A stretch of 64,000 nt of DNA from Rhizobium sp. N324 (GTDB lineage Bacteria; Pseudomonadota; Alphaproteobacteria; Rhizobiales; Rhizobiaceae): positions 3,103,001-3,167,000 of the forward strand of contig NZ_CP013630.1 in NCBI RefSeq assembly GCF_001664485.1. The letters are read 5' to 3'. This document shows positions 43,930 through 50,128 of this stretch, piece by piece. Position 1 is the stretch's first letter, and each line of letters begins with the position of its first letter. Under the pieces are notes generated by a model. It had not been told where the DNA came from, searched no databases, and saw nothing but the letters and a program-made list of their open reading frames with translations. Position numbers and translations under genes: made by a program.

Positions 43930-45141
43930 ATGGCCAAGCAGAAAGTCGCAATGCTGACCGCCGGAGGCCTGGCGCCCTGTCTTTCCTCCGCCGTCGGCGG
44001 CCTCATCGAACGCTACAGCGATATCGCCCCCGACCTCGATATCGTCGCCTACAAGTCCGGCTACCAGGGCGTATTGCTCGGCGACTGCATCGCGATCACC
44101 CGCGAGATGCGCGAAAAGGCGCCGCTGCTGCATCGTTATGGCGGCTCGCCGATCGGCAACAGCCGCGTCAAGCTCACCAATGCCGCCGACTGCGTCAAGC
44201 GCGGCCTGGTCAAGGAAGGCGACAACCCGCTGCGAGTGGCCGCCGAACGTCTTGCCAATGACGGCATCACCATTCTCCATACGATCGGCGGCGACGACAC
44301 CAACACCACCGCTGCCGACCTTGCCGCCTATCTTGCCGCCAACGGTTACAACCTGACCGTCGTCGGCCTGCCGAAGACCGTCGACAACGACGTCGTGCCG
44401 ATCCGCCAGTCGCTCGGCGCCTGGACGGCCGCCGAAGTCGGCGCGCATTTCTTCGACAATGTCGGCAACGAACAGACGGCCGCCCCCCGCACCCTCGTCA
44501 TCCACGAGGTCATGGGCCGCCATTGCGGCTGGCTGACGGCCGCCACCGCCCGCGCCTATCTCCAGCGCACCAGCCGCAACCAGTATGTCGACGGCCTGAT
44601 GATGGACGCGCATCTGAAGAGCATCGACGCCGTCTACCTGCCCGAGATGGCCTTCGACCTCGACGCCGAGGCCGCCCGCCTGAAGGAGAGCATGGACCGC
44701 AACGGCCACGCCACGGTCTTCGTCTCCGAAGGCGCCTGCCTCGACGCCATCGTCGCGGAGCGCGAAGCCGCCGGCGAGACGGTCAAGCGCGACGCCTTCG
44801 GCCATGTGAAGATCGACACGATCAATGTCGGCGCCTGGTTCCAGAAGCAGTTCGCCAGCCTGTTGAACGCCGAACGTTCGCTCGTGCAGAAATCGGGCTA
44901 CTTCGCCCGCTCGGCGCCCGCCAACGGCGACGATCTCCGGCTGATCCAGAGCATGGTCGATCTCGCCGTCGAAAGCGCCCTCAATAAAGTCTCCGGCGTC
45001 ACCGGCCACGATGAAGCGCAAAACGGTAAATTGCGCACTATAGAATTCCCACGCATCAAGGGCGGCAAGGCTTTTGACCTGTCGACGGCATGGTTTGCCG
45101 AAGTCATGGACAATATAGGCCAGAAATACAAAGAAGCGTGA
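43930..45141 (+). CDS. pfp: Pyrophosphate-dependent 6-phosphofructokinase
   Basis: A 403-residue enzyme phosphorylating fructose 6-phosphate in glycolysis. The nucleotide/PPi site is GGDDTNTT at residues 120-127; Asp in the position after the Gly-Gly-Asp marks PPi rather than ATP use. PKTVDNDV carries the catalytic Asp, and HEVMGRHCGWLTAATA the fructose 6-phosphate contacts. AGGAGGG lies just before the ATG. PPi dependence is inferred from these residues. Confidence 0.92.
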   Translation: MAKQKVAMLTAGGLAPCLSSAVGGLIERYSDIAPDLDIVAYKSGYQGVLLGDCIAITREMREKAPLLHRYGGSPIGNSRVKLTNAADCVKRGLVKEGDNPLRVAAERLANDGITILHTIGGDDTNTTAADLAAYLAANGYNLTVVGLPKTVDNDVVPIRQSLGAWTAAEVGAHFFDNVGNEQTAAPRTLVIHEVMGRHCGWLTAATARAYLQRTSRNQYVDGLMMDAHLKSIDAVYLPEMAFDLDAEAARLKESMDRNGHATVFVSEGACLDAIVAEREAAGETVKRDAFGHVKIDTINVGAWFQKQFASLLNAERSLVQKSGYFARSAPANGDDLRLIQSMVDLAVESALNKVSGVTGHDEAQNGKLRTIEFPRIKGGKAFDLSTAWFAEVMDNIGQKYKEA

Positions 45142-45148
45142 TTGACGG

Positions 45149-45156
45149 ATGGTTAA
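45149..45156. promoter_or_regulatory. CtrA half-site-like octamer before the LysE gene
   Basis: ATGGTTAA (TTAACCAT on the minus strand) sits 43 bp before the LysE start codon, next to TTGACG. A single octamer occurs by chance fairly often, so this is weak. Confidence 0.2.
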
Positions 45157-45198
45157 TATGATGTCTTTGCTTGTTCCTGAGGAATAGGAGGAGACACC

Positions 45199-45834
45199 AT
45201 GTCACTTGAAGCTTGGCTCGCTTTTGCGGCCGCATCCGCCATCATGCTGGCCATACCGGGACCGACGATACTGCTCGTCGTTTCCTATGCGCTCGGTCAT
45301 GGACGCAGGACTGCGTTTGCGACGGTGAGCGGCGTGGCGCTTGGTGACTTCACCGCGATGACGGCGTCTCTCTTCGGTCTCGGCGCCGTCCTCGCCGCCT
45401 CCGCCACCCTCTTCACCGTGCTGAAGTGGATCGGCGGCGCCTACCTGATCTGGCTGGGAATCAAGCTTTGGCGGGCGCCCGTCATCGGCGAACCGGTTGC
45501 CGACAACGACAATCTTCCGGAGGAGAAATCGCTCAAGATCTTCCTCCACGCCTATGTCGTCACCGCCCTCAATCCGAAGAGCATTATCTTCTTCGTCGCC
45601 TTCGTGCCGCAGTTCCTCAACCCGGCCCTGCCCTTCCTCGGCCAGATGGCGATCATGGAAGCGACCTTCCTCGTGCTGGCGATCCTCAACGCCTCCACTT
45701 ACGCATTTCTCGCCCATACCGCGCGCGGACTGATTCGCAAGGCGAGCGTCCAGCGCGCCGTAAACCGCACCGGCGGAACCCTGCTGATCGCGGCAGGCGC
45801 CGTAACCGCAGGGTATCGCCGTATTGCGGCTTAG
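45199..45834 (+). CDS. LysE/RhtB family amino acid exporter
   Basis: A 211-residue inner-membrane protein with about six helices and the LysE/RhtB signature AIPGPTILLVVSYALGHGRR near the N-terminus. It also has KWIGGAYLIWLGIKLWRAP and LNPKSIIFFVAFVPQF. GGAGGAG precedes the ATG. Exporters of this family expel lysine, threonine, homoserine or similar compounds; the substrate is unknown. Its stop codon TAG is formed at the edge of a palindromic element inserted at 45834. Removal of that element with one TA would give TAA at the same position. Confidence 0.9.
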   Translation: MSLEAWLAFAAASAIMLAIPGPTILLVVSYALGHGRRTAFATVSGVALGDFTAMTASLFGLGAVLAASATLFTVLKWIGGAYLIWLGIKLWRAPVIGEPVADNDNLPEEKSLKIFLHAYVVTALNPKSIIFFVAFVPQFLNPALPFLGQMAIMEATFLVLAILNASTYAFLAHTARGLIRKASVQRAVNRTGGTLLIAAGAVTAGYRRIAA

Positions 45835-46184
45835 AGCCTTTCCCGGTCAGATTGCAGCATTCTGCCGGAGCAGGTTTTCGTCGGGGCAGAGGCGATCGGC
45901 GATGGGCATACCCCTGGTACGTCCGAGCCGATCGCCTCTGATCCTGGCTAGAGATGCCCGGCCCACCGGCCGCACCGCTTCGCCACGGCGAAGCGATCAG
46001 TGCGTCCGGCGATTCCCAAGTCTTGCAGATTTGCCTGGCAAATCTGCGCGAGGGTTGGCTGAAACGGGCCGGCTGATCGACCGGCCGGCTTGGCCGTAGA
46101 TCTGGGCTACGACGCGCGCCGGCCGGTCGACCATCCGGCTCCGTTTGAGCCAACAGAATGCTGCAATCTGACCGGGAAAGGCTC
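45834..46184. mobile_element. MITE-like palindromic element with 31-bp terminal inverted repeats and TA duplication
   Basis: The 351-bp element begins GAGCCTTTCCCGGTCAGATT and ends with the exact inverted copy; the arms are 45834-45864 and 46154-46184 with no mismatch. TA flanks both sides (45832-45833, 46185-46186), the target duplication of IS630/Tc1-mariner-type elements. Inside are further perfect hairpins: CAGAGGCGATCGGC with its inverse (45887-45940), CGCTTCGCC/GGCGAAGCG near 45980 and GCAGATTTGC/GCAAATCTGC near 46030. No transposase is encoded, so it would depend on a partner enzyme elsewhere. Confidence 0.85.
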
Positions 46185-46302
46185 TAAAAATATTCCGTGG
46201 TTGCCGGAATGTCACGAATAGGTTAATGGGGTCGTCAGGTTTAAGCTTTTTAGTAACTTTTATAACGCTGCCGGGGCGGCGCGATTTCACGAAAGTGACG
46301 GA

Positions 46303-47235
46303 ATGGTAGCGATCGGATTGTCCGGGCTGAAACGCAGTCTTGTCGTTTCTACGGTGCTCTGCTGTGGCGTGATGACCGGCTGCGCAAGCGTCGAATACAC
46401 CTCCCAGGCCGAACTGACAGCTGCTCAGACCGTGGTGCCGATGCCGAAACCCGGTGAAGACGCCACGCTTGCCGCGGTCCCGACAGCCGAAGGCACGGCC
46501 GCTCAGGCAGTCGCCGGCGCTACCCTTGCCCCGGCATCCCCTGCCCTGACCGCGACGGCGATGCCGACCGTGACCGCCTCCCAGCCTGCCGATCTCACCA
46601 TGCAGCCGGCAGCCTACGCGCAGATCCCGCTGACACCCGAGATGACGGCGATCCAGTCCGTGGTGCCGACGCCGCGTCCTGGAGCGCCGGCACAACCGGC
46701 AACGCAGCTTGCCTTTGCCGCGACACCGCAGAACGGCGCGCTTGCGGCACTTGCCGCAGTCGACACGACGCCGCGTGCCAGCATGGATTACGGCTTCGAT
46801 GAATCCGGGCCGATTGATCCGCCGACGGCGCCGCCGATGTTCAGCGACGACGACAAGGACGATGCGCCGACCGTCGAAAAGAGCTTCGTCACCAAGCTCA
46901 TTCAGAAATATTCGAAACTCTACGAAATTCCGGAGACGCTGCTCCACCGCATCGTCCACCGCGAGAGCCGCTACAATCCGAAGGCCTACAACAAGCGCGG
47001 CTATTTCGGCCTCATGCAGATCAAGTACAACACCGCCAAATCAATGGGCTATGACGGCGCCCCGGGCGGTCTCTTCGATGCCGAGACCAACATCAAATAT
47101 GCCGCGAAATATCTGCGCGGCGCCTGGCTCGTCTCCGACAGCAAGGAAGACGATGCCGTCCGCCTCTATGCGCGCGGCTATTATTATGATGCCAAGCGCA
47201 AGGGCATGAATGACGTCGCCCAGGGCAATTACTGA
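46303..47235 (+). CDS. Lipoprotein lytic transglycosylase (SLT domain)
   Basis: A 310-residue predicted lipoprotein. A signal peptide ends in lipobox VMTGC with Cys27. A 160-residue Ala/Pro/Thr-rich spacer follows, then the SLT domain with the catalytic Glu in RIVHRESRYNPKAYNKRG and GYFGLMQIKYNTAKSMGY. It would cleave glycan strands from the membrane surface. The spacer has a repeated motif (QTVVPMPKPGED and QSVVPTPRPGAP). It stands alone downstream of the palindromic element. The ribosome site before ATG 46303 is weak. Confidence 0.88.
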   Translation: MVAIGLSGLKRSLVVSTVLCCGVMTGCASVEYTSQAELTAAQTVVPMPKPGEDATLAAVPTAEGTAAQAVAGATLAPASPALTATAMPTVTASQPADLTMQPAAYAQIPLTPEMTAIQSVVPTPRPGAPAQPATQLAFAATPQNGALAALAAVDTTPRASMDYGFDESGPIDPPTAPPMFSDDDKDDAPTVEKSFVTKLIQKYSKLYEIPETLLHRIVHRESRYNPKAYNKRGYFGLMQIKYNTAKSMGYDGAPGGLFDAETNIKYAAKYLRGAWLVSDSKEDDAVRLYARGYYYDAKRKGMNDVAQGNY

Positions 47236-48883: not shown

Positions 48884-50128
48884 ATGTCAGAATTTGCACC
48901 GGATGCCGGCTTCCGCAAGAACCGGAAACTCAAGGACGCCCTTCTCCGCCACAAGGCTTTTTCGAAGGAAGGTTTCTCCGAGCGTCTCTTCGGCCTCCTC
49001 TTCTCCGGCCTCGTCTACCCGCAGATCTGGGAGGATCCAGATCTCGACATGCAGGCGATGGAGCTGAAGCCGAACCACCGCATCGTCACCATCGGCTCCG
49101 GCGGCTGCAACATGCTCGCCTATCTCTCCAAGGCGCCGGCCTCGATCGACGTCGTCGATCTCAACCCGCACCATATCGCGCTGAACCGCCTGAAGCTTGC
49201 CGCCTTCAAGCATCTGCCGGATCATGCCGATCTCGTCCGGTTCCTGGCGATGCCGAATGAGAAGTCGAACAGCCGCGCCTACGACCGGCATCTTGCCGCC
49301 AAGCTCGACGACGCGACGCGCAGCTATTGGAACGGCCGCAAATTCGGCCGCCGCCGCGTCACCGTCTTCGACCGCAACATCTATGAAACCGGCCTGCTCG
49401 GCCGCTTCATCGGCGCGGCCCATCTTCTTGCCCGCCTGCATGGCGTCAAGCTGCGCGAGATGACCAAGACCCGCTCGATTCGCGAGCAGCGCCAGTTCTT
49501 CGAAGAGCAGATCGCGCCGCTATTCGAAAAGCCGGTCGTTCGCTGGATCACCGGCCGCAAGAGTTCGCTCTTCGGCCTCGGCATTCCGCCGCAGCAATAT
49601 GACGAACTTGCAAGCCTTGCCGCCGATCATTCGATCGCACCGGTGCTGAAGCACCGCCTGGAAAAACTCGCCTGTCATTTCCCGATGCGCGACAATTATT
49701 TCGCCTGGCAGGCCTTCGGCCGCCGCTACGGCACGGAAGAGGAAGGCCCGCTGCCGACTTATCTGAAGTCGGAACACTACGAGGTGATCCGCGCCAATGT
49801 CGACCGCGTCAACGTCCATCATGCAAGCTTCACCGAGCTTCTGGCCCGCGAGCCGGCCGCCTCGCGCGACCGCTTCATCCTGCTCGACGCGCAGGACTGG
49901 ATGACGGATGAGCAGCTGAACGACGTCTGGCGGGAAATCACCCGCACGGCACGCGACGGCGCCCGCGCGATCTTCCGCACCGCCGCCGAAAAGAGCATCA
50001 TCGAAGGCCGCCTGTCGCCCTCGATCCGCGACCAGTGGGATTACTTCGAAGAGAAGTCGCGTGAACTGACCGCGCTCGATCGCTCGGCGATCTATGGCGG
50101 CTTCCACATTTACGGGAAGAAGGCGTGA
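48884..50128 (+). CDS. btaA: S-adenosylmethionine:diacylglycerol 3-amino-3-carboxypropyl transferase
   Basis: A 414-residue BtaA (DUF3419) enzyme that moves the aminocarboxypropyl group of SAM onto diacylglycerol, the first step of the betaine lipid DGTS. Family stretches are GLVYPQIWEDPDLDMQA, the SAM loop IVTIGSGGCNMLAYL, VDLNPHHIALNRLKLAA and ILLDAQDWMT. Together with BtaB it makes phosphorus-free membrane lipid, used when phosphate is scarce. AAGGTG precedes the ATG, and the stop overlaps the btaB start. Confidence 0.95.
   Translation: MSEFAPDAGFRKNRKLKDALLRHKAFSKEGFSERLFGLLFSGLVYPQIWEDPDLDMQAMELKPNHRIVTIGSGGCNMLAYLSKAPASIDVVDLNPHHIALNRLKLAAFKHLPDHADLVRFLAMPNEKSNSRAYDRHLAAKLDDATRSYWNGRKFGRRRVTVFDRNIYETGLLGRFIGAAHLLARLHGVKLREMTKTRSIREQRQFFEEQIAPLFEKPVVRWITGRKSSLFGLGIPPQQYDELASLAADHSIAPVLKHRLEKLACHFPMRDNYFAWQAFGRRYGTEEEGPLPTYLKSEHYEVIRANVDRVNVHHASFTELLAREPAASRDRFILLDAQDWMTDEQLNDVWREITRTARDGARAIFRTAAEKSIIEGRLSPSIRDQWDYFEEKSRELTALDRSAIYGGFHIYGKKA

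Follow-up and report, generated by a model that had tools for sequence, protein, structure and literature searches.

Among the small dispersed repeats described in bacteria, RUP of the pneumococcus is AT-rich, 107 bp long and bounded by 9-bp arms, and IS630-Spn1 is its proposed mover (PMC2229807 and PMC3049150). The former paper gives ERIC and Correia repeats as having TA at their ends, and YPAL as having no terminal TA and duplications of 3–26 bp (PMC2229807). In rhizobia, RIMEs have been annotated on the S. meliloti chromosome (PMC2573895). ISRel6, an IS630-family insertion sequence carried on plasmid p42d of R. etli CFN42, is 1051 bp long, with TAGAGC ends, imperfect arms, an annotated transposase and a YTAR (CTAG) target.

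Here we describe an element in Rhizobium that resembles several of these and probably differs from all of them. Like RUP, it is short and non-coding, with inverted ends, a TA target and ends resembling those of an IS630-family element of its host; unlike RUP, it is about 273 or 356 bp long, has 34-nt arms (in the copy examined most closely below), resides in Rhizobium and occurs in excess at stop codons. ERIC, Correia/NEMIS and YPAL are, like it, small dispersed repeats, but were described from other bacteria. With ISRel6 it shares the TAGAGC ends, the YTAR target and the genus, but not the length, the transposase or the imperfect arms. We put at roughly 0.85 the probability that the element is an IS630/Tc1-mariner-type MITE, moved by a transposase that we infer, whose insertions into stop codons spare the protein and whose old copies shrink. 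It would then be a previously undescribed member of the known IS630-type MITEs, its unusual part being the stop-codon habit. Among the matches listed for rhizobial MITEs and for MITEs at stop codons in open-licence papers, neither the family nor the habit appeared, which is a weak form of absence.

The element lies in a 64,000-nucleotide stretch of the Rhizobium sp. N324 genome (hereafter the window), where the features relevant to it are as follows.

45199–45834, + strand: lysE-type translocator gene (Pfam LysE PF01810, E 6.7e-34)
45831–45864, + strand: left terminal inverted repeat, with flanking T and TA (34 nt, 100% complementary)
45832–45833, no strand: left TA of the target-site duplication (a single TA in empty orthologues)
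45834–46184, no strand: MITE core, long form, 351 bp, GAG...CTC (read from the sequence)
45864–45962, no strand: hairpin A inside the element, tested as helix 2 (fold and paired-change test)
45965–46051, no strand: module of the long form only, two small hairpins (short copies match query 1–134 and 222–357 only)
46054–46154, no strand: hairpin C inside the element, tested as helix 8 (inverted repeats, fold and paired-change test)
46154–46187, − strand: right terminal inverted repeat, with TA and the following A (34 nt, 100% complementary)
46185–46186, no strand: right TA of the target-site duplication (sequence read and orthologous lysE sites)
46303–47235, + strand: gene downstream of the element, encoding a transglycosylase SLT domain, uninterrupted (PF01464, E 1.5e-15)

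The lysE gene ends in GCG GCT TAG, with its stop at 45832–45834, and the first base of the element supplies the third letter of that stop, as the initial annotation had read it. That annotation had also placed a 351-bp element between two TAs, which the coordinates above bear out; the terminal inverted repeats, given there as perfect over 31 nt, are indeed perfect but reach 34 nt. Within hairpin A lie perfect 14-nt arms (45887–45900/45927–45940). No listed ORF of at least 80 aa falls wholly inside the 351-bp core, and the four ORFs that overlap it all extend into the flanks. Elsewhere in the window, a protein encoded at 48884–50128 matches DUF3419 (PF11899), which we take to be a betaine-lipid synthesis family, across most of its length.

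All 60 genomes searched gave a match for the lysE orthologue; 30 of the loci were fetched, and all of these but L083 and L084 were readable, leaving 28. The site is empty in 17 of these 28, with a single TA inside a TAG stop; one of the 17 has a 10-bp duplication beside the TA. Four loci carry the element or a derivative: the long form in G000 (the window's genome) and G012, a shortened form in G027 and a remnant of less than 50 bp in G014. The remaining seven comprise three with a different insert of ~30 bp and four with a TGA stop and other sequence. The empty orthologous sites indicate that the element is inserted DNA and that the stop codon was kept in position, confirming the earlier claim of a TA-targeted insertion that spared the protein. 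Removing the element with one TA from the window does leave GCG GCT TAA, as had been pointed out, but the expectation that empty orthologous sites would end in TAA was correct only as to their single TA: all 17 end in TAG. As a separate observation, the ~30 bp that follows the stop in L071, L075 and L076 (G065, G034 and G009) resembles a second lysE 3′ end (CCGGGTATCGCGCTATTGCAGC).

The element is one of many. The window's genome holds seven copies, four long (94–100% identity) and three short (without query positions 135–221), plus one arm relic. When Rhizobium genomes were searched with the arm, as had been proposed at the outset, at least 73 of 148 from the genus matched (one mismatch allowed), whereas a reversed control pattern matched nowhere. 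Matches in a first sample of genomes (20/61) were confined to the genus, with 20 of 37 inside it and 0 of 24 outside; a family-wide search, in which two candidates were scored per genome, gave matches in 49 of 297 genomes at E 1e-3, many of them weak. From the fetched loci we gathered 141 copies by their arms and merged them by common flank 14-mers into 112 loci, a count in which diverged orthologues may figure separately. Most family members measure 272–357 bp, with two main sizes (one TA counted at each end): 272–273 bp at 48 loci and 354–357 bp at 39 loci. Inverted repeats, small size without a transposase gene, dispersed copies, a TA duplication and empty sites together identify the family as a MITE.

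Among 459 sequences, a single arm pair stood 600–2500 bp apart (L137 1503–2106, in G102). We considered it as an autonomous element and rejected it: its 604 bp are made up of family copies that have been nested or rearranged. In the same genome, the ~357-bp copy L194 is no long form but a short one, part of which is duplicated internally.

To look for a mover, we searched for the IS630 family (PF13358) in 11 + 15 genomes, obtained 35 + 57 matches and fetched 30 + 30 loci. IS630-family insertion sequences of 1043–1054 bp in the same genomes have TAGAG[CT] at both ends, and all 16 of their distinct insertions lie at YTAR. Past TAGAGC, the right end of ISRel6 and the arm have the same base at 11 of the first 12 positions and at 15 of the first 20, a score that none of 2000 shuffles equalled; this end is the best of 18 IS ends compared, the others scoring 7 to 14 of 20. 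The left end is among the worst, with 8/12 and 7/20 (shuffle p 0.37). The first 30 loci were scanned for arms, all 60 for TA-bounded arms, and the 60 plus ISRel6 for arms with up to five substitutions. The last scan picked out the right end alone in ISRel6 and five similar copies, as well as stray single or outward-facing matches in three further IS630 loci. Complete arms at both ends were present in none of the 60 loci scanned of the 92 (26 genomes), nor in ISRel6, so that the full-length relative with the same arms and a transposase that had been envisaged did not turn up in this set. Of the IS630/mariner-type mobilisation proposed initially, the shared YTAR target and the related IS630 ends stand, but complete arms were seen in none of the IS630 elements scanned. 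The resemblance of the ends suggests that an ISRel6-like IS630 transposase may mobilise the element; such an enzyme, whether from the ISRel6 group itself or closely related to it, would recognise the arms and move the DNA between them.

TA flanks the element on both sides at 99 of the 112 loci (at the other 13, one or both TAs are missing). YTAR accounts for 87 of these 99 targets, and 12 are of another form. The position of these sites relative to genes is far from even. Using a codon-usage gene model, we found 37 of 86 YTAR loci exactly in the stop of a predicted gene, 47 intergenic and 2 within genes, compared with 48 at stops, 417 intergenic and 161 within genes among 626 background YTAR sites. 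The odds ratio is 9.1 (Fisher p 1.3e-15), or 6.8 (p 2.8e-12) against intergenic sites only. Stops common to two convergent genes account for 7 element loci and 0 of the 626 background sites. The model was trained on 20 regions of G063, and the background consists of those regions plus the window (464 kb in all), which means that the window's own element junction is counted among the 626 sites.

The gene ends in these tests come from our own model and not from curated annotation. A distance of exactly 0 from the predicted gene end occurred at 40 of 98 loci, the next most frequent distances being 7 and 9 with four loci each. Training the model on the element loci themselves placed 42 of 98 at stops against 25 of 288 nearby sites, and a third training placed 40 of 98. 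Cruder tests gave 39/86 against 37/197 (frames of 200 codons) and 23/86 against 13/199 (third-position GC); nearby-site controls, here as in the 288 sites above and the palindrome test below, omit the element's own site, which is why the main test took its background from the G063 regions and the window. In annotated plasmids, a CDS stop lies inside the end of the element in 8 of 10 copies (H1, H4, H5, H6, H8, H16, H17 and H18, the exceptions being H2 and H7), a share that is not free of bias, since a gene was already visible at the match in several of the rows; the ten come from the first 19 rows of plasmid matches, with H3 and H9–H15 (all duplicate-looking) and also H19 left out. We conclude that the family as a whole tends to sit at stop codons, and that the lysE insertion is no isolated event.

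How such insertions could spare the gene follows from the target. Since YTAR reads TAR on both strands and both ends of the element start with GAG, a TAA or TAG stop that receives the element would always be restored as TAG, whichever side the gene lies on. Stop insertions would thereby be harmless, though their excess over intergenic insertions is not explained in this way.

Two further loci, L262 and L029, each a stop common to two convergent genes, were compared with their orthologues. Of the 30 orthologues fetched for L262, 29 could be read: one has the full element, nine are exactly empty, three have anchors overlapping by 1–2 nt, and 16 have inserts of 5 to 216 nt. These inserts include a relative of the element (L455, 216 nt), 29-nt remnants (L434 and L435) and 7-nt footprints, TAGAGCCTA, in L437 and L444, with similar ones in L436 and L448; those in L432, L433, L438, L442, L443 and L457 are without assignment. 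Old copies would shrink through deletion inside the palindrome, passing through remnants to very small footprints, and the small footprints at L262 may be scars left by cut-and-paste transposition or may have arisen through deletion between short repeats. L029 provides weaker evidence of empty sites. Among its 29 readable orthologues (of 30), one has the full element, two are exact empties retaining TA (L412 and L413), three have the TA plus an additional base (L410, L415 and L419), seven lack an insert but read TCA where the TA triplet would stand, and 16 have other sequence of 1 to 99 nt. The longest of these, the 99-nt insert after TAGAG in L417 from G077 (TAGAGCATTTCC), is apparently another TAGAGC-ended element.

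We then asked what keeps the family at stops. One possibility, tentative in our view, is positive selection, with the hairpins acting as a two-sided terminator or an RNA stabiliser between genes. The hairpins themselves, reported initially, are not due to chance, since the element folded as RNA reaches −253.9 kcal/mol, against an average of −148.5 for shuffled sequences (z −18), and none of 100 shuffles went as low. Stop-site copies sit between convergent genes in 23 of 37 cases, and the share of copies at stops is 23/39 in convergent gaps, against 19/78 for the background, and 11/30 against 29/255 in tandem gaps. Changes on both sides of a pair affected 13 pairs and 52 cells, above the shuffled means of 6.7 and 17.8, in an alignment one row of which (L194) is the internally duplicated short copy and not a true long form. 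This too agrees with selection on the fold, but the outer arms hold 31 of the 52 cells (and 4 of the 13 pairs), and such arms coevolve in inverted-repeat transposons; the two arms differ at 1.22 positions within one copy and at 2.41 between copies (n 110). Moreover, at all three loci compared, most orthologous sites are without the element or have remnants, unlike what a retained function would leave.

The IS630 insertion sequences, which obey the same target rule, offer a comparison that bears on both selection and targeting. They show no stop excess: 1 of 16 distinct insertions lies at a stop (Fisher p 0.009 against 40/98 and 0.004 against 37/86), in keeping with selection on the element, so the bias is not explained by the target choice of the transposase as sampled here. 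This contrast speaks for the survival of old copies over targeting, with the provisos that 16 insertions are few and that the IS copies may be young.

Preferential insertion at gene 3′ ends or in special stop contexts is a still less likely account of the excess, and besides the scarcity of IS630 copies at stops two lines of evidence argue against it. A site profile built from the copies outside stops, made to see whether a wider target context could account for the bias, does not favour background stops (p 0.23), and the targets are no more palindromic than nearby YTAR sites, a candidate preference that had been raised by locus L031. What does point towards targeting is a single stop site, L262, that has received different palindromic inserts by lineage: beside the family's L455 there are L441, L446 and L447 (from G080, G079 and G071; 54, 171 and 76 nt), all starting with GAGCA, and two of them ending in TTGCTC plus a near-repeat of GGATTA. 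A broader proposal is that the element is a stop-codon specialist, whose TAG-restoring ends let it settle precisely there, also in stops common to two convergent genes, that it is kept as a two-sided transcription insulator, and that palindromic elements in Rhizobium dock at stops again and again; we regard this as conceivable, with the odds against it.

It is improbable that the element is a rhizobial repeat already described, RIME1/RIME2 or the A, B and C motifs. RIMEs are about 100–200 bp long, which differs from the element. They do resemble it in being palindromic intergenic repeats of rhizobia, and such repeats are known in rhizobial genomes (PMC2573895); with RIMEs annotated on a chromosome, spread on plasmids is an indirect test. 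In the plasmid collection, 178 records match the element, comprising 168 of Rhizobium, 9 of Sinorhizobium and 1 of Agrobacterium, despite at least 168 Sinorhizobium plasmid records in that collection. This distribution suggests a difference. For the same comparison we searched 81 pckA loci, none of them titled Sinorhizobium, and found no match. Finally, the very strong fold and some paired changes would suit a fixed structural RNA or regulatory element that does not move, but copies are dispersed rather than unique (seven in the window's genome alone), empty sites have a single TA, only 4 of 28 lysE loci carry the element or a derivative instead of all relatives having it in the same place, and the eight Rfam matches to 45000–47000 (E up to 1), mostly animal microRNA, are all under their family gathering cut-offs, which makes this reading very improbable.

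For an IS630-type MITE with protein-sparing stop insertions, the reading we prefer, the stop-codon excess is the part that deserves follow-up. It has a consequence for annotation, as the stops of some Rhizobium genes sit inside a mobile element (8 of the 10 annotated plasmid copies, with the bias described above). The family also allows a test of whether small repeats found where genes end are merely tolerated or used as terminators, and it provides a natural record of how a mobile sequence spreads in a gene-dense genome without breaking proteins.
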